DNA of 64,000 nt from Anaerotruncus colihominis (GTDB lineage Bacteria; Bacillota; Clostridia; Oscillospirales; Ruminococcaceae), in contig CP102255.1 of assembly GCA_025146135.1 (NCBI GenBank), forward strand, positions 558,001 to 622,000, written 5' to 3'. The notes beneath the pieces were generated by a model, which saw nothing but the letters and a program-made list of their open reading frames with translations, was not told the DNA's origin and did not search any database. Shown piece after piece: positions 11,572 through 32,015 of the stretch; position 1 is the first letter of the stretch, and each line of letters begins with the position of its first letter. The position numbers were made by a program, and so were the translations under genes.

Positions 11572-11742
11572 TTTAGTCCGCCTCGATTTCTTATATGTTT
11601 TTGGGGACATGATTAAAAACCAGCCTGTGCAGAAATTGAAAACAAGCGCCCCTACAAATCGGTTCTGAGCAAGCCCTTTGAAAGACGGCGACGTAAAAAC
11701 CGCTTGCAATCCCAACGCTGCTATTTCGCTTTCTATTACGGA

Positions 11743-11782
11743 CTAATATAGCAGATTCTATTTTAAGGTGCTGTTAAGGTGC
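11743..11782 (-). promoter_or_regulatory. Direct repeats upstream of nhaC (11-bp period)
   Basis: TTAAGGTGC occurs twice (11763-11771 and 11774-11782), 11 bases apart, and a degenerate third core CTAA lies at 11743, 20 bases from the first. The same 20/11 spacing of TTAA cores is exact upstream of the kdp and ktr operons. A -10-like TATATT (11750-11745, minus) overlaps the degenerate core. Possible KdpE site, weaker than the other two. Confidence 0.35.
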
Positions 11783-11824
11783 GTTCCCTCCTATTAAAAA
11801 AGCATTATGATCTTTGGCTGTATA

Positions 11825-11989: not shown

Positions 11990-12040
11990 AATCAAAACCG
12001 GCCGCCCCAATTGATGGGGCGGCCCGCCGATATGAGGCGC

Positions 12041-12745
12041 TTATTCCACACGCAGCATCCGGTATCCGACGCCGATATGCGTTTGAATATACTGCGGGGA
12101 GTCAGGCTCCTTTTCCAATTTTTTGCGCAGTGTAGCCATAAACACGCGCAGAGAAGCAATATCGTTATCCCAGCTTCGATTCCAGATTTGCTGGGCAATA
12201 AACGTGTGCGTTAAGACCTTGCCAACATTTTTAGATAACAGACATAAAAGCTTGTATTCGCTGGGGGTCAGATGCAGCTCCTGACCGTCCATATAGGCGC
12301 AGCCCGCGGCATAATCCACCTTCAGCTTTCCATTTGTGAATACAGAATCCGCGTTTGCCATACCGCCTGCCTGTATCGCAGCCAAGCGCCGCTGCGTGAC
12401 GCGCAGCCTGGCAAGCAGCTCCTCAACGGAGAACGGTTTGGTCAAATAGTCGTCAGCGCCCGCGTCCAAAGCTTCTATTTTATCGGTGTCCTCGCTGCGG
12501 GCGCTGATCACGATAATTGGAAGATTGGACCAGGTTCGGACCTTGCGTATAACCTCGATGCCGTCCATATCAGGCAGCCCCAAGTCCAGCAGGATGATTT
12601 CGGGATTGTGTGAGGACGCCTCCAAAATGGCGGATTCGCCGTTGGCGGCCGTCAAAAAGCGGTAATCGTGCGCTTTGAGCGTGGTTGTGATTAAATTACG
12701 GACGGGTACGTCGTCCTCAACAACTAAAATTAAAGGTTTATTCAT
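12041..12745 (-). CDS. kdpE: KdpE response regulator
   Basis: 234-aa OmpR/PhoB-type regulator. Receiver domain with acidic pocket EDD (10-12), phosphoacceptor D54 in LLDLGLPDMDG and K in DDYLTKPFS; C-terminal winged helix (LTPSEYKLLCLLSKN ... GVGYRM). Its ATG overlaps the end of kdpD copy 1 by 8 bases, so the two are translationally coupled. Known role of the family: activation of the kdp K+-ATPase operon under K+ limitation. It is the only KdpE here and has two potential KdpD partners. Confidence 0.93.
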   Translation of the reverse strand: MNKPLILVVEDDVPVRNLITTTLKAHDYRFLTAANGESAILEASSHNPEIILLDLGLPDMDGIEVIRKVRTWSNLPIIVISARSEDTDKIEALDAGADDYLTKPFSVEELLARLRVTQRRLAAIQAGGMANADSVFTNGKLKVDYAAGCAYMDGQELHLTPSEYKLLCLLSKNVGKVLTHTFIAQQIWNRSWDNDIASLRVFMATLRKKLEKEPDSPQYIQTHIGVGYRMLRVE

Positions 12746-15371
12746 GCAGTTCAACCTCCCCGGATGGTATTGAAAATGTAAAGATTGTCCCATGCGGAAT
12801 TTGGTCCGCAACGCTGATTTCTCCTCCATGCGCATTTACAATCGATTTACACAGCGCCAGCCCCAGCCCCATGCTGCGGCGGCTGTCCGCGATTTTGGCG
12901 GAGGCGCTGTAAAACATTTCGAATATATGCGGCTTTGCTTCAGCGGAAATGCCGGGACCATTGTCCGCGATGGAAACAAGGACAAAATCCCCCTGCTTTT
13001 TCCACTCGATACGGATATCGGAACCTACCGGCGTATATTTTATCGCGTTATCGATGATATTGATGAGTACCTGGACGATAAGCCTCACATCGATTTGAAC
13101 CAAAATGTATTCATCAGGTTCGCGGACGATCAGATGGTAGTCCGCGCTTTTGCGGTTGATATGGCGCAGCGCCTCTGCAATTACTTCATCCATGAGTTCT
13201 GTGGACATATGCAAGTTCATACGCCCTTCTTCCAGCCTGCTGACGGACAAAAGATTTTCCACCAGATTGATCAGCCACATCGCGTCATCGTATATGTCCG
13301 TATACATTTGTTCTTTGGTCTGTGCGTCAAACAGCTTGCCATTGGAAAGAAGATTGCTTGCATTCCCCGATATGGCGGTGAGGGGTGTACGCAGATCGTG
13401 GGAGATGGAGCGCAGCAGATTGGCCCGCAGCTGTTCATTTTTTGCCAAAACAGCCGCGGCTTCCTTTTCCTGCGCGTTCTTCTGGTTTTCCAGCGCCAAA
13501 GCGCACTCCCCCAAAACGGAGAGCAAAATGCCGTTTTCAAAAGAATCCAACGGCTTTGCTTTTGCCGCTATTCCAATCACGCCATATACCCGATCGCCGA
13601 TTCGTACAGACCAATAGACGCAGAGGGAATCAGAAAAGGTTTCAGTCCCAGTACCGGCGCGCCGGTTATTTTTCATAACCCACTGTGCGACCGCTTGTTC
13701 CTTTGCGCTGGTATACGGTGTATCAGAGCAGCCCTCATCGGCGGTGCAAAAAAGGACCGGTTGTGACAAAACACCGTTTTCAGCGCGGTATACAACGATA
13801 TCCCTTTGAAAAAGTCTGACCAGCTGCCGTGCGGTTATGGCCATGATTTCCGATTGATCCACAGCCTTTTGCAAACTCTGATTCGTTTCAAACAAGAGTT
13901 TCGTGCGCCAGGCAACCTGTGCGGCTCTCTGTGCGTGGGACTTCAGCTTTGACGCTAAGGAGCCGGTGATGAGCGCCGCGATAAACATGACCAGAAATGT
14001 GACCAGATAGCCGCTGTCATATGCGTGCAGAGAATATCGCGGTTCCGTAAAGAAAAAGTTGAAAATAAGAACGCTGGCGGCTGATGAAATAAAGCTGCAT
14101 ACAGGGCTTTTTGTGGTCACAGAGATCAGCATGACGCTGAGGATATAAATGGTAATGATATTGGCTTCAGTAAAGCCAAGCTTGAAAAACAGAAAGCCGA
14201 CAAGGGTCGCCAGAAGCAACAGCAGCACGCTTTTTACAAGATCACACAGGGAAACGGATAAAAGCCGCATCGGTTCCCTGTAGGCAGGCGCAGAACGCTT
14301 GTTGAGTCCATTGTCGGGAATGATATGAATATCCAGTTCTGGAGCAAGCTCGATCAGCCGTTCTGTCAACGAAGGCGCGCGGAAAATGGTTCGGCGGGAT
14401 ATCCCGCTGCGCCCGATCATGATCTTTGTCACACCGGATAAACGTGCAAATTCCGCGATCTGATAGGGGATATCGTCGCCATATACAGTTTCGACGGACG
14501 CGCCTAACTGTTCGGCCAAACGGATATTGGACCGCAGTCTGTCTTTGTCGGCCTGAAAGCTCCACTGGAACTGTTTTGTTTCCACAAACAACGCTGTAAA
14601 GCCGCATCGAAAGGCGCCGGCCATCCGTGCGGCGGTACGTATGATCTTGGCGTTAGAGGGTGCAGAGGACAGACAGACGAGAATGTGTTCATGGGTCCGG
14701 TATCCTGCTTGCTTCTGTGCTTTGCGAGTTTGCAGCGCAATCCGGTCCGCACAGCGGCGCAGACCTAATTCTCGAAGGGCGTTCAACTGTGTAATGGATA
14801 AGGGGGAAGATAAAGCACCGGGCTGCTTCGCTTTCAGACGATCGAGCAGATCCTGCGGCTCCAGATCCGCAAATTCAACCCGGTCGGCAGCGTCAAACAC
14901 ACTATCGGGCACCCGTTCAGGCAGACCATGCCCAATGATGGCTGAGACGGTGTCCTGAAGGCTTTCGATATGTTGAATATCCAATGTGGTATAGACATCG
15001 ATTCCTGCCTTTAAAAGCTCCTCGATATCCTGATATCGTTTTTTATGCCGGCAGCCGTCCGGGTTCTGATGAGATAAATCGTCGATCAGAATCAATTGCG
15101 GCATTCTGTGCAGCGCGGCGTCCAAATCAATTTCCATAGATGCAGGCGTTCCCTGCTGAATTTGCTTGCACGGCAAAGTCTCAAAACGATCTGCCATTAA
15201 CTGTGTTTGCGGCCAGCCGTTCGCGGCGACAAGTCCGCTGACAACCACTGCCCCCGCCTGCCTGGCGCGCTCGGCGGCCTCAAGCATGGCGTAGGTTTTT
15301 CCTGATCCCGGCGCATAACCGGCAAAAATGGTCAGGGAACCTTTTGGTTCAGACCGGGTCATTGGAGCCAT
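12738..15371 (-). CDS. kdpD: KdpD sensor kinase, copy 1 (divergent N-terminus)
   Basis: 877 aa. Order: KdpD N-terminal domain with Walker A GYAPGSGKTYAML, universal-stress-like domain (ILVCLSSAPSNAK ... GFTALFV), four membrane helices around 400-490, a GAF-like region, HisKA (SHDLRTPLTAISG) and HATPase (DNGPGIS, MGLGLAL). The segment that is usually DELAHTNAPG-like reads DDLSHQNPDGCRH, and the residues after the P-loop (SGLVAANGWPQTQ) do not match the usual ER/HGR motif, so the N-terminal domain is diverged compared with copy 2. FTALF replaces the FTAxY motif reported for c-di-AMP binding in Staphylococcus KdpD. RBS GGGGGGAA precedes the ATG. Confidence 0.9.
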   Translation of the reverse strand: MAPMTRSEPKGSLTIFAGYAPGSGKTYAMLEAAERARQAGAVVVSGLVAANGWPQTQLMADRFETLPCKQIQQGTPASMEIDLDAALHRMPQLILIDDLSHQNPDGCRHKKRYQDIEELLKAGIDVYTTLDIQHIESLQDTVSAIIGHGLPERVPDSVFDAADRVEFADLEPQDLLDRLKAKQPGALSSPLSITQLNALRELGLRRCADRIALQTRKAQKQAGYRTHEHILVCLSSAPSNAKIIRTAARMAGAFRCGFTALFVETKQFQWSFQADKDRLRSNIRLAEQLGASVETVYGDDIPYQIAEFARLSGVTKIMIGRSGISRRTIFRAPSLTERLIELAPELDIHIIPDNGLNKRSAPAYREPMRLLSVSLCDLVKSVLLLLLATLVGFLFFKLGFTEANIITIYILSVMLISVTTKSPVCSFISSAASVLIFNFFFTEPRYSLHAYDSGYLVTFLVMFIAALITGSLASKLKSHAQRAAQVAWRTKLLFETNQSLQKAVDQSEIMAITARQLVRLFQRDIVVYRAENGVLSQPVLFCTADEGCSDTPYTSAKEQAVAQWVMKNNRRAGTGTETFSDSLCVYWSVRIGDRVYGVIGIAAKAKPLDSFENGILLSVLGECALALENQKNAQEKEAAAVLAKNEQLRANLLRSISHDLRTPLTAISGNASNLLSNGKLFDAQTKEQMYTDIYDDAMWLINLVENLLSVSRLEEGRMNLHMSTELMDEVIAEALRHINRKSADYHLIVREPDEYILVQIDVRLIVQVLINIIDNAIKYTPVGSDIRIEWKKQGDFVLVSIADNGPGISAEAKPHIFEMFYSASAKIADSRRSMGLGLALCKSIVNAHGGEISVADQIPHGTIFTFSIPSGEVELHE

Positions 15372-15481
15372 TGAAGTTCCCCCCTTTAAACAAAAGTAGA
15401 AAGGACTGGGGCCAGAGCTTTAGACGTGACGCAAGCGCATCATCTATCCAAAGGAACCATCGCCCTGGCCATGAAAGGCAG

Positions 15482-15617
15482 AATAATCGCTCTGCGGTTA
15501 TTATACCATGTCCGCGAAGCGGCATGGTATAATCGCCCGTCAAAAGGCGGTTGCCGCGCAAGCGGCGAGCCGTTGGGCATAACCCTGGTATAATAACCGC
15601 TCTGCGGTTATTATACC
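15482..15617. repeat. Composite palindrome cluster, copy 1
   Basis: Four adjacent hairpins in 136 bases upstream of kdpD copy 1: 15482-15502 (AATAATCGC / GCGGTTATT), 15500-15533 (34 bp, arms ATTATACCATG and CATGGTATAAT with a GAA loop), 15535-15578 (GCCC...GGGC outside, GCCGC/GCGGC inside) and 15587-15617 (14-bp perfect stem GGTATAATAACCGC). The 34-bp unit recurs, inverted and with compensatory changes, at 34350-34383. No gene in this stretch. Confidence 0.75.
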
Positions 15618-15624
15618 ACAGACT

Positions 15625-16110
15625 TCAAAAATTCCTTACACCCACGCGCCGAATAAATTCCGGGACAAGCGGAGAGGGCGCTTCTTTGCTCCAAACCAGA
15701 GCCTGCTTGTGCATCATCTGATCTATAGGCTGGAGCAGGACGCCGGATTCTTCAAGACGCAGAGTCCGCGGCTCAAACTTGACGAATGCGGTTTCCAGAC
15801 ACAGGCCGGTGCGTGTTTCAGCAGAAACGACAGCCAAATCGGCCTTTCCACATGCAAGATACCGCAGGATCTCCTGTTGTTGGCCAAAAACAATTGTCAC
15901 TTCCAAATTTGGATAATCCCTTTTTATATCGCTGTATGTATCCAATACAAACTGGATCGCATAGAGGCTTGAAACCGCGATCATCAAATGACAGCGGTCA
16001 GTTTTTTCTGTGCTGCTGCGTATCCGGCCCAGATCACTGTCCAGCCTGGACATCAGATAATAGAGGAATACGGCGACGCTTAAAAAGCCAGCCAATAAAA
16101 CAATTTCCAT
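15625..16110 (-). CDS. Membrane-anchored LysR-effector-domain-like protein
   Basis: 161 aa from the ATG at 16110 (AGGAGG 7 bases upstream; the ATG at 16116 is too close to it). A single hydrophobic helix at about 3-21 is followed by a soluble domain. The segment HLMIAVSSLYAIQFVL, the YPNLEVTIVFGQQQEIL strand-helix and the GKADLAVVS turn have the spacing of the LysR substrate-binding (type 2 periplasmic-binding-like) domain. There is no helix-turn-helix. It sits between ktrA and kdpD copy 1 in the same direction. A ligand-sensing role for K+ transport or kinase control is inference; I do not recognise a named family. Confidence 0.55.
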   Translation of the reverse strand: MEIVLLAGFLSVAVFLYYLMSRLDSDLGRIRSSTEKTDRCHLMIAVSSLYAIQFVLDTYSDIKRDYPNLEVTIVFGQQQEILRYLACGKADLAVVSAETRTGLCLETAFVKFEPRTLRLEESGVLLQPIDQMMHKQALVWSKEAPSPLVPEFIRRVGVRNF

Positions 16111-16146
16111 CAGCATGCCTCCTTTGGCTTGCGGATAAAGAATGAT

Positions 16147-16797
16147 TTATATATGGAAGCACTTTTGAACATCGCGCAGAGTTCCTAAAACAAGAAATGT
16201 ACTGTGCTCCGGCAGGCAGGTTTCCGGTTTGATGACGGTCATGGAGAGCTTCCCGTTTTCCTTGATCGCCAGAATGTTGACATGGTACCGTTTGCGCACA
16301 TCCAACTGTCCGATGGTTTTTCCGGCCCAGCTATCCGGTACAGATACTTCGAAAATAGCCTGATCGTCCCCAAGTGAAATATAATCCGAGATATGATCGG
16401 AGCTGTATCGGATAGCCGTCCAGACCGCCATCTGCTTTTCAGGGTATACGACTTCATCCGCGCCATTGCGCAGCAAAAATTTTGCCTGTACATCCCGTGC
16501 GGCCCGTGCGACCACCTTTTTTGCCCCCAGCTCTTTCAAAAGGGACGCCGTTTCCAGAGAGCTTTGAAAATTATCCCCGATGGCAACGATGCATACATCA
16601 AAATTGCGAACCCCCAGCGAAGAAAGAAATTCTTCGTCGGTGCTGTCGCCTATTTGCGCATTGGTAACAAAGGGAAGCACTGCGTTTACTCTGCTTTCAA
16701 CCCGGTCAACCACCATGACCTGATGATTTAATTCGTTCAATTTTTGTGCAATATGACGCCCAAAACGGCCAAGACCAATCAGTAGAATCGCTTTCAT
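16147..16797 (-). CDS. ktrA: KtrA/TrkA-type K+ channel regulatory subunit (RCK protein)
   Basis: 216 aa, one RCK_N plus RCK_C unit as in KtrA, half the length of two-unit TrkA. The Rossmann nucleotide motif GLGRFGRH is at 8-15 with an acidic residue ending beta-2 (VVDRVESR). RCK_C begins near 140 (VSVPDSWAGKTIGQLDVR). It gates the KtrB-type membrane subunit encoded 45 bases upstream in the same operon. RBS AAGGAGG. Confidence 0.9.
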   Translation of the reverse strand: MKAILLIGLGRFGRHIAQKLNELNHQVMVVDRVESRVNAVLPFVTNAQIGDSTDEEFLSSLGVRNFDVCIVAIGDNFQSSLETASLLKELGAKKVVARAARDVQAKFLLRNGADEVVYPEKQMAVWTAIRYSSDHISDYISLGDDQAIFEVSVPDSWAGKTIGQLDVRKRYHVNILAIKENGKLSMTVIKPETCLPEHSTFLVLGTLRDVQKCFHI

Positions 16798-16842: not shown

Positions 16843-18186
16843 CTAGCCAACGGTGATCCGCTCCTGAGGCAGCTTCGCATTTGTCGACTGCGTATGGGAC
16901 ATGGTGGCAAAGATCAAGGTCAGGCCTCCCACGCGCCCAAAAAACATGAGAGAAATCAAAATCAAATGGGATACAATCCCCAGCTGTGGGGTGATATTCA
17001 GGGACAGCCCGACCGTTCCGATGGCGGATGCAGTTTCAAACAGGCAGTCGAGCAGGGGAAGGTTTTCCATACGGCTGATGATCAGCCCGGCTGTCAAAAA
17101 TAAAAACAAATACATGATCAAGATGGTTGCAGCCTGGCGCACCGCATCGTTGGAGATTCGCCGGTTAAAAAAATTAGCGGACTCTTTCCTGCGGAAAACA
17201 GCCAATGAGCTTGCCAGCAAAACAGCCAGCGTCGTTGTTTTCATACCGCCCGCAGTAGAACCGGGTGAACCTCCGACCAGCATCAAAACAGTCATGATAA
17301 ATTGGCCGGGTTCGCTCATTGCAGTCAGGTCTGCGGTGTTAAAGCCCGCGGTTCTGGGTGTAACCGACTGGAAAAGAGAAAGCAGCAGCCGCTCGTCCAA
17401 AGGCGCCTGCACAAACTCAAAAAGGAAAAAATAGACGGAAGGGATTGCGATCAAGGCGAGGGTAACGGTGAGAATAACCTTGCTCTGCATCCGGTATTTT
17501 CGAAAATGGAAACGATTCGTTCGTATATCATCCCATGTGAGAAATCCAATGCCGCCGGTGATGATCAGCAGCATGATGACAATGGAGACAATCGGATGAT
17601 CGGAATAACTGGTCAATGACGAAAAGGGAGCTATGACCCCCATGAGGTCAAAGCCTGCATTACAGAATGCGGATATGGAATGAAACAGTGCGTACCATAC
17701 GCCCCTGAGCGTCCCGAAATCCTTCAAAAAAATCGGCAGCAGAATCGCTGCACCCAGCAGCTCAATAACCAGAGCGGTCTTTAAAATAAATCCGGTCAGA
17801 CGGACAATCCCGCCGACATTTGGCGCCGCAATAGCCTCCTGCATGGTGCTGCGCTGCATCAGACCAATTCTGCGGCCGGAAAGAATGGCGAAAGCACCCG
17901 CGACCGTCACCACGCCAAGCCCTCCTATTTGGATGAGCAGAATAATGATAAGCTGCCCAAAGCCGGACCAATAGGTCGCTGTATCGTGAAGGACCAAGCC
18001 TGTTACACAAACGGCTGAGGTGGATGTGAACAGCGCGTCCACAAAGGGAGTCCAGATGCGCTGTTTTGTGGAAATGGGAAGCATCAGCAGAAAGCTTCCA
18101 GCCAGAATTACGAGCAGGAATCCCAGAATAATAATCTGAAAAGGCGATGTGCGTTTTTTCTGCTGGAGCGGCCGCATAAACACCAT
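16843..18186 (-). CDS. ktrB: KtrB/TrkH-type K+ translocating subunit
   Basis: 447-aa membrane protein of the Trk/Ktr/HKT superfamily. The four pore-loop regions with the selectivity glycine are visible: STSAVCVTGLV, SISAFCNAGFDL, SVTPRTAGFNT and TASAIGTVGLSL. It forms the K+ path with KtrA, encoded next. Two ATGs nine bases apart (18186 and 18177) are both possible. The promoter upstream carries the same TTAA spacing as the kdp promoter. Confidence 0.9.
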   Translation of the reverse strand: MVFMRPLQQKKRTSPFQIIILGFLLVILAGSFLLMLPISTKQRIWTPFVDALFTSTSAVCVTGLVLHDTATYWSGFGQLIIILLIQIGGLGVVTVAGAFAILSGRRIGLMQRSTMQEAIAAPNVGGIVRLTGFILKTALVIELLGAAILLPIFLKDFGTLRGVWYALFHSISAFCNAGFDLMGVIAPFSSLTSYSDHPIVSIVIMLLIITGGIGFLTWDDIRTNRFHFRKYRMQSKVILTVTLALIAIPSVYFFLFEFVQAPLDERLLLSLFQSVTPRTAGFNTADLTAMSEPGQFIMTVLMLVGGSPGSTAGGMKTTTLAVLLASSLAVFRRKESANFFNRRISNDAVRQAATILIMYLFLFLTAGLIISRMENLPLLDCLFETASAIGTVGLSLNITPQLGIVSHLILISLMFFGRVGGLTLIFATMSHTQSTNAKLPQERITVG

Positions 18187-18221
18187 CTCTTAATACCTCT
18201 TTATAAAATCTTTATACACCC

Positions 18222-18284
18222 ATTATCCACATCGGGTCTAAAAGGGGTATTAATGTTTTATAATCCGCATTAAAATGGCATTAA
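18222..18284 (-). promoter_or_regulatory. ktr promoter with TTAA triplet (candidate KdpE site)
   Basis: TTAA cores at 18250, 18270 and 18281 (plus-strand coordinates; spacings 20 and 11), the last two inside exact GCATTAA repeats (18267-18273, 18278-18284). A -10-like GATAAT lies at 18227-18222 on the minus strand, 23 bases from the proximal core. The kdp promoter shows the same 20/11 spacing with its -10 at almost the same distance. Confidence 0.5.
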
Positions 18285-18344
18285 GACGCGCGGTGCCGTG
18301 TATTCATCCTGCCGGAATTCCATGTATTTGCAAGTTATGTATTC

Positions 18345-18539
18345 TTATAGCCATCCGCACAACAAGGAGATTGGAAGCATGGCGGCCAGTGTGCAGATAA
18401 CAACCGCGAGCAGGGTGAGCAGAGGCAGCCCTATAAACATTACAAGAAGTCCAAGCAGCGGGTGATGAAGAATAAAACGTTCAGCGGTTGTATCAAAACG
18501 GTTTTCAAAACGGGAAAACTTCCTTTTCAGCGTATCCAT
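18345..18539 (-). CDS. Small membrane protein (64 aa)
   Basis: A basic, aromatic N-terminus (DTLKRKFSRFENRFD) is followed by one long hydrophobic stretch (about 28-60), enough for one or two helices. Strong RBS (TAAGGAGG, 8 bases) and a TATAAT-like -10 on the minus strand at 18568-18563 support expression. Not recognised. Location between kdp and ktr suggests a K+-related accessory, but nothing in the sequence proves it. Confidence 0.6.
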   Translation of the reverse strand: MDTLKRKFSRFENRFDTTAERFILHHPLLGLLVMFIGLPLLTLLAVVICTLAAMLPISLLCGWL

Positions 18540-18633
18540 AATGGGTTCCTCCTTATGAACCCATTATAATCAATGCAAGCTTAAACTGGGGATAAGATTG
18601 ATGGACTGAGGTTAAGAATTAATAAATATTCAA

Positions 18634-18684
18634 AAGAACAAGGCGTCCGGCCTGTGGATACCACGGGATGAACGCCTTGCTCTT
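18634..18684 (-). terminator. Terminator after the kdp operon
   Basis: Arms AAGAACAAGGCGT and ACGCCTTGCTCTT separated by about 25 bases, shortly downstream of the 295-aa gene stop on the minus strand and followed by T-rich sequence. Confidence 0.65.
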
Positions 18685-18726
18685 TATTGTTTTTTGTGTT
18701 GTAAAATGGACCGCAGACCCCAAAAG

Positions 18727-19614
18727 TCACTGGTTTAACGGGAACAAAATTTTCATAAGCACCTGCTCGGCGGCCCCTGTGTGATCCACGCCAAAATAAA
18801 GCCGCTTGCCCAAACCATCCAGCAGCTCGAATTGGCTGCCGCGGCAGATGAATTGTATATTTAACTGCTCCAGGACGCTGAAAAGTGAAAGCGTCCATTC
18901 GATCCAGTTGGGTGCGCACTGATTGACAAGCGTATCCCACAGCCATTCAAATTCCGGCGGGAAAATCCGTTTTTCCAAAAACAGGAGCCACAACTTCTGC
19001 TTTTGCTCCAGGGTCAGGCTGAGCAGACAGGCTAGGGGAGCATCATCCGGGCAGTCTTGTTCAAAATAAACGTAGCAGAAGGACAGCGTGCGGTCAATAC
19101 AGGCCAGATGCTGCTGTTCGAGAAAATCGGCGTACTCCCATTCCATTGCCGCTGCGGGGCGTCCGTCCTCAACCGCCCGGAGCAAGTCAAAAAGGCAGCG
19201 CGCTGCTTTGGTGTCAGGCAGAAGGAGAGTCAGGTACAAATCGCGCAGCTCGTCAAACCAAACGCCGGAAACGCTTTGCTGGCGCATCACAAGACTGTCG
19301 CCGTCGCCGGCAAAGCTGATTCCGATCAACTCGCCGCTGTCTGCGATGCCAAAGACCTCAAGCGGCCAGGTTTGGTCTATTTTGGATACCAAGGAACCAA
19401 AATTTTCAGCCAGTTCATCGGTTGGAAAGGACAACACCTCATATCCAATCTTTAGCTGTCTGTCGCCGTGACGGTAAAAAACTCTGTGAGGCAGACCGAG
19501 CCAGTCGTTCAGAGATTTTATCAGGCAGATGATCAGCCAAGCGGGAGAATTTTCCACAGCCACGGTCTTTGGACAAATGGTGCGTTCTATGGTTTGATTG
19601 TAGCGAAACCGCAT
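18727..19614 (-). CDS. Unrecognised 295-aa protein downstream of kdpC
   Basis: Starts 37 bases after kdpC with GGAGG 8 bases before the ATG, so it is the last gene of the kdp operon. No signal peptide or membrane segment. It is leucine- and tryptophan-rich and acidic (for example FLEQQHLACIDRTLSFCYVY, EFEWLWDTLVNQC). I see no P-loop, helix-turn-helix or catalytic motif and cannot assign a family. It could be a cytosolic accessory or regulatory protein of the K+ system. Confidence 0.7.
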   Translation of the reverse strand: MRFRYNQTIERTICPKTVAVENSPAWLIICLIKSLNDWLGLPHRVFYRHGDRQLKIGYEVLSFPTDELAENFGSLVSKIDQTWPLEVFGIADSGELIGISFAGDGDSLVMRQQSVSGVWFDELRDLYLTLLLPDTKAARCLFDLLRAVEDGRPAAAMEWEYADFLEQQHLACIDRTLSFCYVYFEQDCPDDAPLACLLSLTLEQKQKLWLLFLEKRIFPPEFEWLWDTLVNQCAPNWIEWTLSLFSVLEQLNIQFICRGSQFELLDGLGKRLYFGVDHTGAAEQVLMKILFPLNQ

Positions 19615-19651
19615 ATATGCGCCTCCGTTCTGGCGATTGGTTCATCCCCTT

Positions 19652-20329
19652 TTATTGCTTGCCGGCCTCGCGGATCAGTCCCATGCTCTCTGCAATGTCC
19701 AAATTGACGCCCAGAACGTTGACGGTTTCCTCACCGAAAATGCCAAGCAGCTTGCCCTGCGTGTTATCAGCCACAATCTGTTCCAGCTCCTGCTGGCTCA
19801 GGCCGGAGGCTTCAGCCAAAGCCGGAATCTGGATTTGTGCCGCTTGTGGAGAGATATGCGGATCCAACCCGGAGCCGGAGGCTGTCACCATATCGGCGGG
19901 GATGTCCTCGCGGCTGACGCCGGGATTGGCGTCCAAAAACGCTTCAATATCCGCTTGTACACGTTCCACAAGGGCAGGGTTGGAGGGCGCATAATTGTTG
20001 GAGCCGGATCCAAGGCCGGCAAATTCCGTACCGTCGTTGTAAAACTGATTGCCCTGGGCATCCTCGTAGTAGGTGTTGTAATGATATGCTGAAGGACGCG
20101 TTTTCATAAAGTAGGGCTTTGTAAATTCCTGCCCCACATGGGCGGCGCCGACTGGCGTTCCGTCCGCTGTAACCAGGCTGCCATGCGCCTGGCTTGGGAA
20201 AATTACAGCGGAGATCCCACTGAGCACGACCGGAAATGCAAAGCCGCAGAGAAAGAGAAGCAGCAGTGTTACGACCACGGCCTGACGCACCCAGTGGAGG
20301 AAGGCGCTTTTATTTGTGGTTTCATTCAT
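19652..20329 (-). CDS. kdpC: K+-transporting ATPase subunit C
   Basis: 225 aa. One N-terminal membrane helix (about 15-38) followed by the extracytoplasmic domain typical of KdpC: GSLVTADGTPVGAAHVGQEF, FMKTRPSAY, the SNNYAPSNPALVE segment and GSGLDPHISPQAAQ near the C-terminus. KdpC connects KdpA and KdpB in the complex. It begins 13 bases after kdpB with AGGAGG. Confidence 0.95.
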   Translation of the reverse strand: MNETTNKSAFLHWVRQAVVVTLLLLFLCGFAFPVVLSGISAVIFPSQAHGSLVTADGTPVGAAHVGQEFTKPYFMKTRPSAYHYNTYYEDAQGNQFYNDGTEFAGLGSGSNNYAPSNPALVERVQADIEAFLDANPGVSREDIPADMVTASGSGLDPHISPQAAQIQIPALAEASGLSQQELEQIVADNTQGKLLGIFGEETVNVLGVNLDIAESMGLIREAGKQ

Positions 20330-20342
20330 AAGGGATACCTCC

Positions 20343-22394
20343 TCAGAAGCCCATCCCCATCACGCCTAAAAGCGGGGTGATAAGGATATCGATCAATTTA
20401 ATACCTACAAATGGTGTGATTATGCCGCCCAGGCCATAGATCATCATATTGCGCGCCAGCATTTTTCCAGAGGACATCGGGCGGTATTTGACGCCCTTCA
20501 TCGCCAGTGGAATCAAGCACGGGATGATAATCGCGTTGAAGATCAGGGCCGACAGGATTGCGCTGTATTGTGTGGACAGCCCCATGATGTTGAGCATCTG
20601 AAGCTGTGGGATAGCCGTCATAAACATTGCGGGAATAATGGCGAAATACTTGGCGATATCGTTGGCAATCGAAAACGTGGTCAGCGACCCGCGCGTAATA
20701 AGCAGTTGCTTGCCAATCTCCACCACTTCCAGGATTTTGGTGGGATCGCTGTCCAGATCGACCATATTGGCGGCTTCCTTTGCGGCGGTGGTGCCCGAAT
20801 TCATAGCCAGCCCCACATTGGCCTGGGCCAAAGCGGGCGCATCATTGGTGCCGTCGCCTGTCATAGCCACAATTTTGCCTTCGGACTGTTCTTTTTTAAT
20901 CACGCTGATTTTATCCTCCGGCTTACATTCGGCTATGAAGCCATCCACACCGGCTTCCTTGGCAATGGTGGCGGCGGTCAGCGGGTTATCGCCTGTGCAC
21001 ATGATTGTCTTGATGCCGATGGCGCGGAGACGTGCGAAACGTTCCGTCATGCCCGGCTTTACGGTATCCTTTAAATAGATGACGCCCAGGATCCGGTTGT
21101 TTTCACATACTGCCAGCGGTGTGCCTCCCAGGGAGGATACTCTTTCAACATGGGTGTGGAGATCTGCCGGGATTTTGCCGCCCTGCTCCAGTACATATTG
21201 CTCAATGGCGTCAGAAGCGCCTTTTCTGATTTTGGAACCATCGGGCAGATCGACGCCGCTCATACGGGTCTGTGCGGTAAACTCCTGGAAGGAGGAGCCA
21301 TCGGTTTCCACGCTGTTGTCCCCCAGACGGCGTGCCAGCTCCAGAGTGGATTTACCCTCGGGCGTATCGTCATGGAGGCTGGTCAACGCGGCGCAGCGAA
21401 TCAGATCGCTGCGGCTGGCGCCCTCTACAGGAAAGAAGTCGGCCGCCAGACGGTTGCCAAAGGTGATGGTCCCGGTTTTATCCAAAATCATGGTGTCTAC
21501 GTCTCCGCAGGCCTCCACGGCCTTGCCGCTCATAGCAATCACGTTGAACCGGGTGACCCGGTCCATGCCGGCGATACCGATCGCGGAGAGCAAGCCGCCG
21601 ATGGTGGTGGGGATCAGGCAAACCATCAGCGCAATCAGCGTGGAGGTCTGGAGCTGCACTCCTGAATAGAGCCCGATAGGATACAGGCTTACAATGACAA
21701 TCAGGAAGATGATGGTCAACGACACGAGCAGGGTATTTAAAGCGATTTCATTCGGCGTTTTTTTACGGGACGCCCCTTCAACCAGGGCAATCATCCGATC
21801 CAGAAAGCTGTTGCCCGGCTCGGAGGTGATGCGCACCTTCAGCCAGTCGGATACAACGGTTGTTCCGCCTGTTACGGAGCAGAAATCACCGCCGCTTTCA
21901 CGGACGACAGGCGCGGATTCGCCGGTGATCGCCGATTCGTCCACTGAGGCGATGCCCTCGATGACCTCGCCGTCATTGGGAATGATTTCGCCGGCGCTCA
22001 CCAGGACAACGTCGCCTTTTTTCAGCTCGCTGGAGGAGACGATCGTCTCGTTTCCATCCTCGTCCAGCAGATGGGCCTGCGTTTCCTTCTGCGTTTTTTT
22101 CAGGCTGGCAGCCTGCGCCTTGCCGCGTCCTTCGGCCACAGATTCGGCGAAGTTTGCAAACAGGACGGTGATCAGCAGGATGATGGAAACCACCAGATTA
22201 TAAGTACGCACGCTGCCGTCGGTTTCACCGAGCAGGCCGGGGAAAAAGGTGAGAGCCAGGGTGATAAAAAAACCGATCTCCACCACGAACATCACGGGGT
22301 TTTTCATCATATAGCGCGGGTTCAGCTTGGCAAAGGAGCCAACCAGCGCCTGCCGGAAAATTTCCGGCGTTACCAGTTTCTGTTTACTGCTCAT
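20343..22394 (-). CDS. kdpB: K+-transporting P-type ATPase subunit B
   Basis: 683-aa P-type ATPase that hydrolyses ATP for the Kdp complex. Catalytic motif [11 protein letters not shown] with the phosphorylated aspartate, TGES in the actuator domain (AITGESAPV), [10 protein letters not shown], and [18 protein letters not shown] in the P domain; KGAS in the nucleotide domain. RBS GGGAGG. It begins 16 bases after kdpA. Confidence 0.97.
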
Positions 22395-22410
22395 TTTTAT
22401 CTACCTCCCA

Positions 22411-24165
22411 TCAGGACCAAAGCGTCAAATGCTCTGCGATTGGCCCTAAAGCCAGCGCAGGGAAGAAGGTCAGGGCGGCGAAGATATATACCACAAAGAC
22501 CAGGATCACTGCGAAGGAAACCGTCTCGGTTTTCAGTGTACCGACCGACTCGCTGACAAACCTCTTTTTCATCAGTGAGCCTGCGATGGCCAACTGAATG
22601 ATGATCGACAGATACCGTCCGAAGAACATTGCAAGACCGGCTGTAATATTCCAAAAGTAGCTGTTGTCCGCCAACCCTTCAAATCCGGAACCGTTGTTGG
22701 CCGCCGAGGAAGCATATTCATACAGCACCTGGCTTAATCCATGGAAGCCGGGGTTTGTAATGCCCTCCAGCCCCGCAGGGACGGCTACCGCCAGCGCAGA
22801 GAAGGAAAGGATCAGCAGCGGATGAATGATAATGCAAAGAGCGGTGAGCTTCATTTCACGCCCTTCGATCTTCTTGCCTAAGTACTCCGGCGTGCGCCCA
22901 ATCATCAGCCCGCAGATAAATACGGCGAGGATGGCGTACATGATCATATTCATCAATCCTACGCCTTTACCGCCGAATACGACGTTAAGCATCATGTGGA
23001 GCAGCGGGACCATGCCGCCCAGAGGCGTCAGGGTATCGTGCATGTTGTTGACGGTACCGGTTGTGAAGGATGTGGTTGTTGTGGTAAACATCGCCGACTG
23101 GGCAATGCCAAACCGCACTTCCTTGCCTTCCATGCTGCCCATGGACTGATCGAGACCCACCTGCTCCAGCGCCGGATTTCCCTGGCTCTCAGACCAGAAA
23201 CAAACGCTCAGGCCAATTAAAAAGATGATTCCCATTGCCAAAAAGATCGTGCGGCCTTCCCGGCCGATGATCCTGGAAACGAGAGAACGGTCTTTCGTGT
23301 CTGCCTGTTCGTTCTGGCCGGCTGCGCGGGCGCGTTTGCTGTCCAGCACCATCTTGCCGAATGTAATAACGCAGGCCCCGGGGAGAATCATCATCGAATA
23401 TAATTCGATCAGATTAGAGAGAATGGTTGGGTTTTCAAGCGGCGTCGACGAGTTGGCCCCCAAAAAGCCGCCTCCGTTGGTACCGAGATGCTTGATGATT
23501 TCCAGCGCCGCTATGGGGCCCTGCGCGATGATCTGTTTGGTACCTTCAATGGTAGTGACTACAGTATTGGCAATGAAATTCTGCGGAACGCCCTGCCATA
23601 CCAGCAGCAGGCCGCCGACGATTGAAAAGGGGATCATGATACGTGTGGTAATACGCACAAGATCCACAAAGAAGTTGCCCACATTCTCCTTGGTCCGTCC
23701 GGCAAGCCCGCGGATAAAGGCTACGCAGGCGGCATAACCGGTCGACGCCGATACAAACATCATAAAGATGATCACCAGCATTTGGGAGAGATAGCTTAGG
23801 CCGCTCTCACCCGAATAGTGCTGAAGGTTTGTATTCGTCATAAAGCTGACGATCGTGTTAAACGCAAGCGTCGGCTCCATATCGCCGATGCCGTTTGGAT
23901 TAAATAGTCCAATGTGCTGAATGCGTAAAATGAGATATCCTATGAATACCATAACGGCGTTTGTTCCCACGAGGGCAAGCGCGTACTGTTTCCAGTTCAT
24001 GCCCCTTTGGGGATTGACGCCGCTGATTTTGTAAATAAGTCCGTCGACCCGGTCAAATACCGGATCGGCAAAGGTGTGCTTCCCAGCGGCGATATGATAC
24101 ATATACCGCCCCACCGGGATGACGATCAACAGATATATAATGATCGTCAGCGCAAGCTGCAGCAT
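22411..24165 (-). CDS. kdpA: K+-transporting ATPase subunit A
   Basis: 584-aa membrane subunit that selects and conducts K+. About ten membrane helices; the pore loops related to KcsA are visible as NTIVSFMTNTNLQHYSGE, HLGTNGGGFLGANSSTP and SSAANNGSGFEGL. RBS GGAGGG 7 bases before the ATG. It follows the tiny kdpF gene. Confidence 0.97.
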   Translation of the reverse strand: MLQLALTIIIYLLIVIPVGRYMYHIAAGKHTFADPVFDRVDGLIYKISGVNPQRGMNWKQYALALVGTNAVMVFIGYLILRIQHIGLFNPNGIGDMEPTLAFNTIVSFMTNTNLQHYSGESGLSYLSQMLVIIFMMFVSASTGYAACVAFIRGLAGRTKENVGNFFVDLVRITTRIMIPFSIVGGLLLVWQGVPQNFIANTVVTTIEGTKQIIAQGPIAALEIIKHLGTNGGGFLGANSSTPLENPTILSNLIELYSMMILPGACVITFGKMVLDSKRARAAGQNEQADTKDRSLVSRIIGREGRTIFLAMGIIFLIGLSVCFWSESQGNPALEQVGLDQSMGSMEGKEVRFGIAQSAMFTTTTTSFTTGTVNNMHDTLTPLGGMVPLLHMMLNVVFGGKGVGLMNMIMYAILAVFICGLMIGRTPEYLGKKIEGREMKLTALCIIIHPLLILSFSALAVAVPAGLEGITNPGFHGLSQVLYEYASSAANNGSGFEGLADNSYFWNITAGLAMFFGRYLSIIIQLAIAGSLMKKRFVSESVGTLKTETVSFAVILVFVVYIFAALTFFPALALGPIAEHLTLWS

Positions 24166-24196
24166 AATCGTTCCCTCCTACTTGACTATTCTGATA

Positions 24197-24274
24197 CTAA
24201 AATTTTTCCGGGTGTACCAGGGCGTAAACCAGATATACGCCCATCAGCAGCACGATGCCGCCCAATATCAACAT
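24197..24274 (-). CDS. kdpF: KdpF, 25-aa membrane peptide
   Basis: Reading the minus strand from ATG at 24274 gives a 25-residue peptide: MLILGGIVLLMGVYLVYALV then HPEKF and a stop. A single hydrophobic helix and the HPE(K/R)F-type ending fit KdpF, the small stabilising subunit of the Kdp complex. GGAGG lies 6 bases upstream, after a small hairpin (24291-24305). It directly precedes kdpA. Confidence 0.88.
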   Translation of the reverse strand: MLILGGIVLLMGVYLVYALVHPEKF

Positions 24275-24375
24275 ATAAATCCTCCGTTCCACCGCACTGC
24301 GCGGTATCAATACAAATGAAAGCTCCCCCACGGACGGGGATTTTTCCTACCGCTTTTCTCTTTATCTCAAGCCGG

Positions 24376-24474
24376 TTACTCCTGGTTGTCATTTTGTTGC
24401 TGGCACCATTTGGTCAGCAGCCAGACCAGCCCGAAACAGACAGCCAGCGTTCCGACCATCAAGAGATCCATCAT
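24376..24474 (-). CDS. Small membrane peptide at the head of the kdp operon (32 aa)
   Basis: Minus-strand ORF from tandem ATGs (24474/24471): hydrophobic helix MVGTLAVCFGLVWLLTKW followed by a polar tail CQQQNDNQE. GGAAGG lies 10 bases upstream. It is the first ORF of the kdp transcript, 100 bases before kdpF. Not recognised by name; similar short membrane ORFs ahead of kdpF are plausible in clostridial kdp operons. Confidence 0.6.
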   Translation of the reverse strand: MMDLLMVGTLAVCFGLVWLLTKWCQQQNDNQE

Positions 24475-24572
24475 ATGCGATACGCCTTCCTTTCCTGAGA
24501 CATTCCGCCGCGCTGTGAACAGGGTTTCCCATATGCTTTAAAAGCACGGCAAGGCTTTTTTGTTGCCCCCAT

Positions 24573-24636
24573 AGTATACTGCAAGCCGTAATAAGCGGGG
24601 ATTAAGGGTTTTGACACGGCGTTAAGAAAAAATTAA
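24573..24636 (-). promoter_or_regulatory. kdp promoter with TTAA triplet (candidate KdpE site)
   Basis: Minus-strand -10 TATACT at 24578-24573 without a good -35, as expected for an activated promoter. Upstream, TTAA cores at 24602, 24622 and 24633 (plus-strand positions) have spacings of 20 and 11, the same as in front of ktrB. The most distal pair lies within an A/T tract. Confidence 0.5.
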
Positions 24637-24653: not shown

Positions 24654-27338
24654 TCACTCCAAGCCCCGTCGGTCGACAGCGGGGAGTGTAAAACGGAATA
24701 CCGTTCCCGACGGCCTGTTGTCGGATACGGTGATTTGCCCGTTATGCTGGGCAATGATTGACCGGCAGAGATTCAGCCCCAATCCCAATCCCCGCTGACA
24801 ATCCGACCGGCCTTGCTCCGCGGTGTAGAATAAATCGAACAGATGCTTTTTCGCTTCGTCCGGAATGCCGGGACCGTCGTCGGAAATGGATACCTCCACC
24901 ATGTCCCCCTTACGCTCGCCGCTTAAAACAATGTGCGAGCCGTTGGGGGTGTATTGAATGGCGTTATTCATGATGTTGATGATAACACGCAGGATCAGCT
25001 TCGCATTTATATTTGCCATCAACATCGGGTCCTGCAGCACAATCGAAATATTATGTTCGCGCGCCCGGCGGTCCAACTGCGTTGCCGCACTTTGGAATAT
25101 ATCCTCCAAAAGCTGCGGCTCCATGGGGAGGGCGCCCTTGTCCGCCTCAAGGTGCGTCGCTGCCAACAGGTTTTCAGTCATACTGATCAGCCAATTCGTA
25201 TCGTCATAGATGCCTGTGTACAGTCTTTCTTTGGCCGCGTCATCCAGGGGGCATTCCTTTTGCATCAAGATGGACGCGCTGCCGCTGATATTTGTAAGCG
25301 GGGTGCGCAGGTCATGGGATACGGCGCGGAGCAGATTTGCCTGGAGGTGCTCCTTTTGCGCCTGAAGCGCGGCCTGGTTTTTTTCCTCCTGCAAGCGCAG
25401 ACGCTCCAGGCTTAAACCGCATTCGCTTAAAATGGCGATCATAAAATTTTTCTCAGAAGCGTCTGGGATGGGATATCCGGCGATCGGAATTCCCACAAGC
25501 CCCATGGCGCCCCGCGCACCGCGGACAGACAGAAACAGCCATTTGGAATCCGGCAATGTGTTCGTCGTGGCGCCAGCGTGTTTATTGTTTTTCTGGACCC
25601 ACTTTGCCACGCCGATTTCCTCGGTGGTCAATTGCTTCAGTACCCGTTTTTCGTCCGCCGGCTCCACACGAAACGACAGATTTTCATCCGGATGGTTTAA
25701 ACTGTATAAAACGGGCCGGTCAAAAAGCCTGTTCAATTGCTCCGCGGCCAATTGTAAGCATTCCAACTCATTTCGGCCCTGCTGAAGCTTTTGACTGCTT
25801 TCCAGCAGCAATTCCGTGAAATAACTTTTTTGCGCCGTCAACTGCGCCTGCGTTTTAACCTGGCTTGCAAGAGAGCTTGCAATGAAGCTGGAAAGCAGCA
25901 TGATCAGAAATGTGATAGGATAACTTGGATCGGTGGCCTGGAAAGTGAATTTTGGTTCAGTAAAAAAGAAATTAAAGGCAGCTACGCTTAAAAGCGAGCT
26001 GACGGCGCCATACAGGTGTCCGTTTGTCCAGACGGCCGTTACCAGAACACCCAGAATAAAAACCGTGATGATATTTGATTCGCTGAAGCCTGCGGAATAA
26101 AAAGTGAAGCAAAGCAGGGTGGAGATGAGCAGAACAAGCAGCATTTTCCCCGTGTCCTTCCAGGAAAACACAAGCTTTTTCCTGTGGATTTTTCCTAGGG
26201 GTTTTTTATAAAGGGGCTGCTGATCAGGGATGATATAAACATCCAGATCGGTCAGCTCGATTAAACGGTCGGCCATGCTTTTTTTGCGGGTTATAGAATT
26301 AGACCGGTGATTCATGCGCCCCATCACAATTTTCGTTACACCGCTGACACGGGCGTATTCGGCGATCTGTACCGCTGGATCGGTACCGTATACCGTTGCA
26401 ATCTGAGCGCCCAATTGTTCCGCCAGACGCAGGTTGCTTCTCAGCCGTTTGATGTTTTCTCCGGACAGCTCTTTGGTTTCAGGCGTCTGTACAAAAAGAG
26501 CTGTAAAGCCGCTGTGAAAGGCCTCGGCCATACGCGCGGCGGTTCGTATGACCTTGGCGTTGGACGGCGCCGAGGAAAGGCAAATCAGGATATGCTCCCC
26601 CGCACGGGCGGTTTGCCCCTTCCGGTCATGTACAGCCGCCCGATTAAGCCGGTCCGCCGTTCTGCGCATGGCAATTTCACGCAGCGCCGCCAGGTTTTCC
26701 GCGGTAAAAAAGTTCTCAAGCGCCTGTTTGGCCTGGCGTTCCCGGTAGACTTTGCCGGCGCGCAGCCGTTTGACCAGATCATCCGGTTCGATATCCACAA
26801 GCTCCACCTGGCTTGCCAGGTCGAACACGAAATCCGGTATACGTTCGTTGACCACTACGCCGGTGATGGAAGAAACAAGATCGTTCAAGGACTCCAGATG
26901 CTGTACGTTAACGGTGGTGTAAACATTGATCCCCGCCCGCAGAAGCTCCTCTATGTCCTGGTATCGCTTGGTATGGCGGCATCCCGGCGCATTGCTGTGC
27001 GCAAGCTCATCTACAAGAATCAATTGCGGCCTGCGCTGTAGGGCGCTGTCCAAGTCAAATTCCTTCAGTTTGATTCCGCGATAGTCAATTTCCTTGCAGT
27101 CAAGCACCTCCAGACCCTCCAGCAATGCCAGGGTGTCCGGACGGGTGTGCCGCTCCACATAACCGACGACCACGTCGATTCCCTCGTTTTTTGCTTGATG
27201 CGCTGCTTCCAGCATGGCGTAGGTTTTGCCGACGCCTGCCGCATAACCAAAAAAGATTTTCAACTTTCCGTTGGCGGCGCCGGTCACCGTTTCATTATTT
27301 TCCAGAGGCGCTGACGGATTTTTATAATGTTCATCCAT
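24654..27338 (-). CDS. kdpD: KdpD sensor kinase, copy 2 (canonical)
   Basis: 894 aa from MDEHYKNP (AAGGAGA 7 bases upstream; an upstream in-frame ATG at 27359 lacks this). The KdpD N-terminal domain is canonical: GYAAGVGKTYAML, GYVERHTRPDT, LVDELAHSNAPGCRHTKR. It is followed by a universal-stress-like domain (ILICLSSAPSNAK, GFTALFV), four membrane helices, GAF-like segment, HisKA SHDLRTPLTNISG and HATPase DDGPGIPDE / GLGLGLNL. No kdpE follows; the kdp structural operon does. It presumably shares KdpE with copy 1. Confidence 0.92.
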   Translation of the reverse strand: MDEHYKNPSAPLENNETVTGAANGKLKIFFGYAAGVGKTYAMLEAAHQAKNEGIDVVVGYVERHTRPDTLALLEGLEVLDCKEIDYRGIKLKEFDLDSALQRRPQLILVDELAHSNAPGCRHTKRYQDIEELLRAGINVYTTVNVQHLESLNDLVSSITGVVVNERIPDFVFDLASQVELVDIEPDDLVKRLRAGKVYRERQAKQALENFFTAENLAALREIAMRRTADRLNRAAVHDRKGQTARAGEHILICLSSAPSNAKVIRTAARMAEAFHSGFTALFVQTPETKELSGENIKRLRSNLRLAEQLGAQIATVYGTDPAVQIAEYARVSGVTKIVMGRMNHRSNSITRKKSMADRLIELTDLDVYIIPDQQPLYKKPLGKIHRKKLVFSWKDTGKMLLVLLISTLLCFTFYSAGFSESNIITVFILGVLVTAVWTNGHLYGAVSSLLSVAAFNFFFTEPKFTFQATDPSYPITFLIMLLSSFIASSLASQVKTQAQLTAQKSYFTELLLESSQKLQQGRNELECLQLAAEQLNRLFDRPVLYSLNHPDENLSFRVEPADEKRVLKQLTTEEIGVAKWVQKNNKHAGATTNTLPDSKWLFLSVRGARGAMGLVGIPIAGYPIPDASEKNFMIAILSECGLSLERLRLQEEKNQAALQAQKEHLQANLLRAVSHDLRTPLTNISGSASILMQKECPLDDAAKERLYTGIYDDTNWLISMTENLLAATHLEADKGALPMEPQLLEDIFQSAATQLDRRAREHNISIVLQDPMLMANINAKLILRVIINIMNNAIQYTPNGSHIVLSGERKGDMVEVSISDDGPGIPDEAKKHLFDLFYTAEQGRSDCQRGLGLGLNLCRSIIAQHNGQITVSDNRPSGTVFRFTLPAVDRRGLE

Positions 27339-27496
27339 ATGGTTCTCCTTCCGTATCATTGGAGTGGCGCAATGTCTTTTTATAATTAAGATAGCACAGC
27401 AGACCCAATGAAAGCATAAATCTTTTTTGTTTTACATTAAGACTATATAAAGGCGGCGCAGAAATCCCATACCACAGCCTTCCCGGCTTAGAAAAA

Positions 27497-31854: not shown

Positions 31855-32015
31855 AGGAGCTGCACCAATGGGAGACGTACATGTCTTGGCGGAAAATTTC
31901 CCGTTCGGATCGGGTGGGAAAAGCTTGAAATCCGTCAGGATTCCCACGTTTTCCTTCCTTGCCGGATAAAAAACTTTTCCGAAGATCCATGCGTTTTTCC
32001 AATTGGTACGCTTCT
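31855..32015. repeat. 161-bp dispersed element (copy B)
   Basis: Same order of segments as copy A at 11825-11989: GCTGCACCAATGGGAG, ACATGTCTTGGCGGAAAATT, GCTTGAAATCCGTCAGGATT, CCTTCCTTGCCGG and CCAATTGGTACGCTTCT. The terminal inverted repeats are degenerate (about 13 of 16 matched). It occupies most of the gap between the rhodanese and kinase genes. Same orientation relative to the plus strand as copy A. Confidence 0.75.

Follow-up and report, generated by a model that had tools for sequence, protein, structure and literature searches.

Known KdpE systems and the Anaerotruncus colihominis locus

Activation of kdp operons by the response regulator KdpE through 11-bp repeats is already known. 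The Escherichia coli KdpE box at kdpFABC reads TTTATA-N5-TTTACA, has an 11-bp period and was footprinted from -72 to -50, according to PMC3264566, from which the half-site rule for KdpE boxes was also taken; the work of Sugiura (1992) on this box is given as cited in PMC5401905. For Clostridium acetobutylicum, the title of Behrens and Duerre (2000) states that KdpE controls only the kdp operon, and PMC5401905 describes a T-rich KdpE site resembling that of E. coli. The same paper reports that Staphylococcus aureus KdpE binds the kdpFABC and kdpDE promoters, and Ktr of this species is described as constitutive in PMC3791899. The object of this study is a 64,000-nt stretch of the Anaerotruncus colihominis genome (CP102255.1, positions 558,001 to 622,000; hereafter the window), which lies inside a single contig of 3,563,916 bases and carries kdp, ktr and kdpDE genes on its minus strand. 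Five promoters in the window contain the same array of two 11-bp direct repeats, and we consider it probable (about 0.88) that this array is a double KdpE box through which KdpE would induce kdpFABC, ktr, its own genes, an antiporter gene and orf64, a gene for a 64-aa membrane protein. The array, its spacing, its specificity in the genome and its co-occurrence with kdpE can be read directly from the sequences.

The array resembles the TTTATA-N5-TTTACA box of the E. coli kdp activator in its 11-bp period and its position at about -72 to -50, and the matrix used here locates the E. coli box at the same place. Unlike E. coli, where there is one clear box, a second box here replaces the -35 element, and promoters of ktr, kdpDE, the antiporter and the small protein are added. 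C. acetobutylicum KdpE is clostridial like the one studied here, but, to judge from the title cited above, it serves only the kdp operon, as against five promoters here. S. aureus also has Ktr and Kdp in one cell and, according to the source given above, KdpE at the kdpFABC and kdpDE promoters, whereas its Ktr is described there as constitutive and that of A. colihominis is predicted to be induced by KdpE. The literature covered (search listings, abstract openings and few subscription papers) contained no KdpE control of ktr in Clostridia, ktr/kdpDE target, double KdpE box, orf64, antiporter target or reverse box array over the kdpDE start. The pho boxes of PhoB and PhoP are also 11-bp direct repeats, with a box overlapping the -35 region; repeat period and -35 overlap are shared with the array, but regulator and genes differ.

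Architecture and conservation of the array

The first-pass annotation had placed TTAA cores at 24602, 24622 and 24633 before the kdp operon and at 18250, 18270 and 18281 before ktrB, with spacings of 20 and 11. All six are present at these positions and spacings, but they represent three of four half-sites, of which the fourth reads TTATT in the kdp promoter and TTTAG in the ktr promoter; similarly, the signature is indeed common to both promoters, but five promoters rather than two carry the array. The latter consists of two 11-bp direct repeats (box A with half-sites A1 and A2, box B with B1 and B2) whose starts are 31 bp apart, with half-sites at offsets 0, 11, 31 and 42, a -10 element at offset 57-58 and no recognizable -35 element. 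In the kdpFABC promoter (24573..24636, minus strand), the half-sites are at 24636, 24625, 24605 and 24594 and the -10 element is TATACT (24573-24578), while the ktrBA-(LysR-like)-kdpD2-kdpE promoter (18222..18286, minus strand) has half-sites at 18284, 18273, 18253 and 18242 and GATAAT at 18222-18227. The distances of 24 and 23 from core to -10, noted earlier for kdp and ktr, are accounted for by the ktr -10 element lying at offset 57, not 58.

Conservation was examined in 80 named GTDB loci with kdpA plus the window, which gave 74 non-redundant kdp upstream regions after removal of near-copies. Distances between TTAA pairs peaked at 20 (39 sequences), 11 (37), 31 (28) and 42 (12) over a background mean of 6.3 pairs per distance, the pattern expected of four half-sites at 0, 11, 31 and 42. 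The exact triple occurred in 19 of the 74 kdp and 9 of 27 ktr/kdpD2 upstream regions (the window is in both sets), compared with means of 0.1 and 0.01, respectively, in 200 first-order random resamplings. An iterated matrix exceeded 12 in 91 of these 101 regions, against a maximum of 9.3 in 74 resampled regions, although it was trained on the same 101 regions and its scores are therefore generous. Of 93 regions, 78 had their best box B at a distance of 31 bp from box A, and seven at 32 bp. Of 83 non-redundant sites, 75 could be scored for the -10 hexamer, which was outside the matrix; in 64 of them its offset is exactly 58. The hexamer often has the extended form TGnTATAAT, and A1 would thus occupy the predicted box position of about -72 to -50. 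Two AT-rich half-sites with TT first and an 11-bp period were found; in the nhaC promoter, the first half-site is ATAAT. A sigma-70 scan of the five promoters found no site with a -35 element, as expected if they are activator-dependent. Loss of the spacing in relatives had been named in the first-pass annotation as grounds against KdpE control; the spacing proved to be conserved, and the inference survived.

Such arrays might also arise by chance, promoter DNA being AT-rich while the genome is moderately GC-rich. Exact TTAA-16-TTAA-7-TTAA occurs three times in the window, where 0.01 is expected, and the same three matches, all within 13 kb, are the only ones in the 3,563,916 bases. A backwards control pattern likewise has three genome matches, which counts in favour of chance; therefore clustering and conservation, not the count, carry the evidence. 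With shuffled sequences yielding 0.01 to 0.1 matches and the array conserved in many named loci, chance is already refuted by this conservation and its probability is negligible. The third triple (11763-11797), missing from the first-pass annotation, belongs to the antiporter promoter. TTAA is palindromic, and offsets 0/11/31/42 read identically in both directions; a plus-strand promoter of a transcript against kdpE was considered and rejected, as the array scores 30.0 when read on the minus strand, whereas nothing on the plus strand reaches 8.

Five promoters and their specificity in the genome

The ktr/kdpD2E promoter is the strongest (matrix score 49.1; model E-value 1.3e-9), and the kdpFABC promoter scores 34.5 (E 6.6e-6). 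The NhaC-type antiporter promoter (11745..11808, minus strand) has A1 at 11808, A2 at 11797, B1 at 11777, B2 at 11766 and a -10 element TATATT at 11745-11750 (30.0; E 1.1e-5), the exact triple being part of its array; a sixth matrix match in the window (8.4 at 11777) is this array in a shifted register. The orf64 promoter (18563..18629, minus strand) has A1 at 18626 and TATAAT at 18563-18568 (28.8; E 1.2e-3), and the kdpD1 promoter (27388..27454, minus strand) has A1 at 27451 and TATCTT at 27388-27393 (25.9; E 2.2e-5).

For the genome search, a model was built from 65 of 83 non-redundant sites of relatives, with weak or frame-shifted ones excluded by hand; it contained no window and no nhaC site, although two of the 91 sites used to refine the matrix that selected the 65 came from the window. 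In the whole-genome run, which scored 150 of 451 initial candidates, the five window promoters ranked 1 to 5 in the 3.56-Mb genome (E 1.3e-9 to 1.2e-3; 39.9 to 21.0 bits). The next matches were partial (E 0.039 and 0.17) and lay at transposase-like and MerR-like genes, named from reading of their open reading frames (ORFs); the matches at these non-phosphate genes were judged to be due to chance and rejected as extra targets.

The five promoters could be alike simply by descent from one duplicated promoter, with some of them (nhaC, kdpD1, orf64) no longer binding KdpE. All lie within one cluster of about 16 kb and their scores vary from 21.0 to 39.9 bits, as this explanation would have it, but half-sites and -10 elements are kept between promoters while the spacers differ. 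Moreover, sites at kdpD1, orf64 and ktr/kdpD2 are found again in relatives, and that at nhaC is paralleled in L118 (matrix 17.5; this genome is also L174, with 23.2 bits) and has a weak counterpart in L056 (10.4). We regard this explanation as improbable.

A dispersed repeat of about 165 nt was found at 11826-11990 and 31855-32015 (plus strand), with inverted ends TGTACCAATGG/CCATTGGTACA. It gave 12 matches in the genome, including the query itself and some partial ones, and one copy adjoins the antiporter promoter; it is possibly a miniature inverted-repeat transposable element or a small-RNA gene. KdpE-type double boxes were also seen in other Firmicutes, at 5323 and 5994 in L108, 4524 in L111, 9518 in L046 and 3077 in L066 (all minus strand). 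The genes behind them, named from translations, encode KdpE-like receiver, CBS-domain-like and dihydrodipicolinate-synthase-like proteins and are possible further regulon members.

KdpE as the candidate regulator

The matrix was applied to 260 nt upstream of kdpF in E. coli MG1655, and its top match was the known KdpE box (11.9; next -2.8), the box-A part alone scoring 17.9. By sequence and promoter position, the upstream 11-bp repeat is the counterpart of the E. coli KdpE box. An E. coli TTTGC-N6-TTTGC was noticed as a candidate for the downstream repeat; its downstream-box score is low and no claim is made for it. The kdpE product aligns with E. coli KdpE (4KNY), and R193, R200 and T215, numbered by reading of the alignment, are conserved; these are DNA-contact residues in E. 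coli according to PMC3264566. The NCBIfam KdpE equivalog PRK10529 was the best family listed, with 216 bits against a cut-off of 325. The product may thus be called KdpE-like by context, best match and the E. coli alignment, not by the curated cut-off. No close KdpE paralogue was found in the genome, the next regulator having at most 35% identity.

Co-occurrence was surveyed in 396 genomes of the family, with E<=1e-75 for KdpE orthologues and E<=1e-3 for the motif; the motif scans scored at most 7 or 13 candidates per genome, and the stricter 13-candidate scan recovered four of the five A. colihominis sites. The motif was present in 59 of 66 genomes with KdpE and in 12 of 330 without it, leaving seven genomes with KdpE only and 318 with neither (Fisher 5.5e-50, a value that overstates independence since the genomes are related and the counts not independent). 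Most motif matches (101/123) were within 20 kb of a kdpE orthologue. In four of the seven KdpE-only genomes (G363, G400, G401, G407), contigs end in or near kdpDE. Nine of the 12 motif-only genomes were inspected (all but G147, G231 and G232): contigs are cut within a kdpD1 fragment in G017 and G215 and within ktrA in G283, G146 and G259 contain ktr/kdp gene remnants, G383 contains none, and the other three have boxed ktrBA. In a hand-picked comparison, the motif was found in 18 of 18 kdpA-bearing relatives (of 19; G143 was left out) versus 3 of 18 genomes without KdpA that were chosen by hand; of these three, G004 and G022 have KdpDE, and G020 is a weak case with no KdpE at E<=1e-60. A set of 46 genomes with "KdpE without KdpA" was dropped as evidence of Kdp-less genomes, since several contain distant KdpA (31-49% identity) missed at E<=1e-150.

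Another regulator of the OmpR/PhoB family, for example of the PhoP/PhoB type with TTAAC-like 11-bp repeats, could own these sites, KdpE being a mere neighbour. Half-sites resembling TTAA are frequent among the targets of this family in Firmicutes, the A. colihominis genome encodes nine or more other regulators of the OmpR type (E<=1e-25), and boxed ktrBA with no KdpE found nearby occurs in three genomes (G097, G190, G256). However, the motif is missing from 318 of the 330 genomes without KdpE and, in the set with a close KtrB, from 48 of 54, although genomes without KdpE presumably hold other OmpR-type regulators; the top five matches in the A. colihominis genome are all in the kdp cluster, and the box fits the E. 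coli KdpE site in sequence and position. Ownership by a different regulator is thus quite improbable.

Control by KdpE at all five promoters is weakened by several points, among them the relatedness of the surveyed genomes and the three genomes with boxed ktrBA just named. The thresholds for KdpE (1e-75) and KtrB (1e-134) were chosen after the lists had been viewed. No motif was found in the stretches around kdpE in G007, G014 and G212, while G018, G185 and G273 have KdpE and the motif, but the latter does not stand in front of the close ktrB. The sites at kdpD1 and orf64 are weaker than the others, and the downstream repeat matched poorly in E. coli. Finally, Mycobacterium smegmatis KdpE did not bind its own kdpDE promoter, according to PMC5401905, and KdpE autoregulation is therefore not general.

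Ktr and kdpDE probably under the same promoter

Close KtrB occurs in 79 genomes; the motif was found in 24 of the 25 that have KdpE and in 6 of the 54 that do not, and by coordinates it directly precedes the close ktrB in 21 of the 25. Annotation covered sixty model matches in genomes of the family (each of the 53 from one search and 7 of the 25 from another; kdpD2 rows with negative distance, being artefacts, were unused). Of these, 21 directly precede ktrB, and 20 of the 21 stretches lack kdpA, the loci having been chosen mostly from genomes without close KdpA. Two genomes (G004, G022) have KdpDE and a boxed ktrB, with no KdpA at E<=1e-50 genome-wide. Predicted KdpE control of Ktr, also where Kdp is missing, is well supported by these patterns. 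Thus the proposal of the first-pass annotation that KdpE controls both the Kdp ATPase and Ktr gains support from conservation, the E. coli box match and the co-occurrence with kdpE, but it was too narrow, as kdpD1, the small membrane protein and the antiporter share the array.

In relatives L045, L067, L072-L074 and L091, no ktr was found at this place and the same promoter directly precedes kdpD2(-kdpE); therefore the "ktr" promoter probably serves the regulator's own genes, kdpD2-kdpE, as well. Read-through from ktr into kdpD2-kdpE is predicted as likely. The 253-bp gap between the LysR-like gene and kdpD2 holds a palindromic repeat, GGTATAATAACCGC/GCGGTTATTATACC, present in two copies (window 15477-15618), which could affect this read-through.

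A reverse-oriented box at the ktr/kdpDE start

Just downstream of the ktr/kdpDE -10 element, the opposite strand carries a KdpE-like box, TTTATA-N5-TTTATA (18198..18221, plus strand), a candidate autorepression operator. The other-strand half-sites 3' of this -10 element form an ATAAAG-N5-ATAAAG-N5-TTAAG-like series. The box scores 20.7 by the box-A matrix and 11.0 bits by the model (E 0.029; E 1.64 in the whole-genome run). At an arbitrary cut of 8, reverse boxes are largely confined to promoters of this kind: 7 of 15 non-redundant ktr/kdpD2 promoters from relatives have one, as do 3 of 20 family ktrB promoters, versus none of 46 kdpA, 1 of 18 kdpD1 and none of 4 orf64-like promoters; within the window only ktr has one, and shuffled sequences reach the cut in 0 to 0.7%. 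Absence from the other 8 of 15 ktr/kdpD2 promoters counts against general conservation. At the promoters of kdpA and kdpD1, too, mean reverse-strand scores are higher than in shuffled sequences (about -4 versus -10 to -12), which speaks against a specific box, and the signal may come partly from AAAG-rich leader and ribosome-site sequence. The position of the box over the kdpDE start site suggests autorepression.

The small membrane protein orf64

The orf64 gene (18345..18539, minus strand) has its start codon 87 nt after A1 of its own KdpE-type promoter, and its product matched no Pfam or NCBIfam family. Fourteen relatives have a comparable site, and in 12 of them a similar ORF starts 86-90 nt downstream of A1; for L072 and L100, the script chose another frame or start. 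Related small proteins are encoded before kdpA in L184, L186, L192 and L194, where a box before the small ORF is clear in L184, weak (12.1 bits) in L186 and L194 and absent in L192. A protein bearing a comparable HP...G.P...LL.V signature is encoded divergently from kdpD1, behind its own box, in L080, L085 and L094; an ORF of this type is doubtful in L089, and none was obtained in L118. The small proteins, including those of the window, L045, L058, L080, L085, L094, L184 and L186, were thus seen in three settings: between kdpC and ktr, before kdpA and divergent from kdpD1. They likely constitute an unannotated family of small membrane proteins belonging to the KdpE regulon. MgrB is a small membrane protein of PhoQ/PhoP, an ion-sensing two-component regulon; orf64 may be likened to it as a candidate small membrane protein of another such regulon.

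Genes of the locus

The minus-strand gene order is kdpD1, a 32-aa ORF, kdpF, kdpA, kdpB, kdpC, a gene for a 295-aa protein, orf64, ktrB, ktrA, a gene for a LysR-domain-like protein, kdpD2, kdpE and the NhaC-type antiporter gene; coordinates below refer to this strand. The kdpD1 gene (24654..27359) encodes a full-length KdpD-like sensor kinase, for which PRK10490 was the best family (4.4e-200; 667 bits, under the cut-off of 1123); its likely start is at about 27338, 3' of the ribosome site GGAAGGAG. A second full-length KdpD-like kinase is encoded by kdpD2 (12738..15371; PRK10490, 1.3e-162; 543 bits, also under 1123). These two kinases face one KdpE, as no close KdpE homologue other than the kdpE product (12041..12736; 4KNY alignment 4.8e-57) was found in the genome. 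The KdpD1 alignment of several relatives (L045, L052, L072-L074) stops at about residue 670, and their KdpD1 seems to be without a kinase domain.

The 32-aa hydrophobic ORF (24376..24474), with no Pfam family, lies between the kdp promoter and kdpF (24197..24274; TIGR02115 1.4e-5, slightly under the cut-off). It is followed by kdpA (22411..24165; TIGR00680 4.1e-201), kdpB (20343..22394) and kdpC (19652..20329), the last two named from position and translation and aligned in relatives. The 295-aa protein (18727..19614) matched no Pfam/NCBIfam-type family and sits after kdpC in many relatives. The Ktr system comprises a ktrB/trkH-type potassium transporter subunit (16843..18186; TIGR00933 1.1e-96, slightly under the cut-off) and ktrA (16147..16797; TrkA_N and TrkA_C). 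The next gene of the ktr operon (15625..16116) encodes a LysR-substrate-domain-like protein (PF03466 2.7e-7) with a hydrophobic N-terminus, in which no DNA-binding part was seen; weak relatives (26-29% identity) occur within the ktr-kdpD2E cluster of other genomes. The antiporter (10198..11574) belongs to the NhaC-type Na+/H+ family (PF03553 3.7e-22). Control of the potassium importers by a cyclic di-AMP riboswitch was rejected, since no Rfam match to it at the gathering threshold was found upstream (window 9000-30000), where only tRNA and thiamine pyrophosphate riboswitch matches were present.

Proposed regulation and its meaning

From the array and its distribution we infer binding and activation by KdpE, a potassium signal, the transcription start sites and co-transcription of ktr with kdpD2-kdpE. 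Under potassium limitation, KdpD1 and KdpD2 would phosphorylate the single KdpE, two dimers of which would bind head-to-tail on the array. One dimer would sit on the upstream repeat (about -70 to -55, the position known from E. coli) and the other on the downstream repeat, standing in for the missing -35 element, so that RNA polymerase would be held at the -10 element, often TG-extended. KdpE could in this way induce kdpFABC, Ktr, the NhaC-type antiporter and the 64-aa membrane protein, and induction of its own kdpD1 and kdpD2-kdpE genes would provide positive feedback. An extended scheme would be a closed potassium circuit with two brakes, in which activation by KdpE is countered by self-repression at the reverse box and by orf64, acting in feedback on KdpD, as MgrB does on PhoQ, or tuning Ktr/Kdp, and the circuit would serve Ktr alone in the absence of Kdp; this is conceivable but rather unlikely in full.

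If the boxes work as proposed, the picture would contrast with the available literature, in which KdpE of C. acetobutylicum is kdp-specific (by title) and Ktr of S. aureus is constitutive (PMC3791899). The array would allow KdpE targets to be listed from sequence, and it exposes an unannotated family of small membrane proteins as likely regulon members. KdpDE would then regulate potassium uptake more broadly among gut-type Clostridia, also in those genomes where a Kdp pump was not found.

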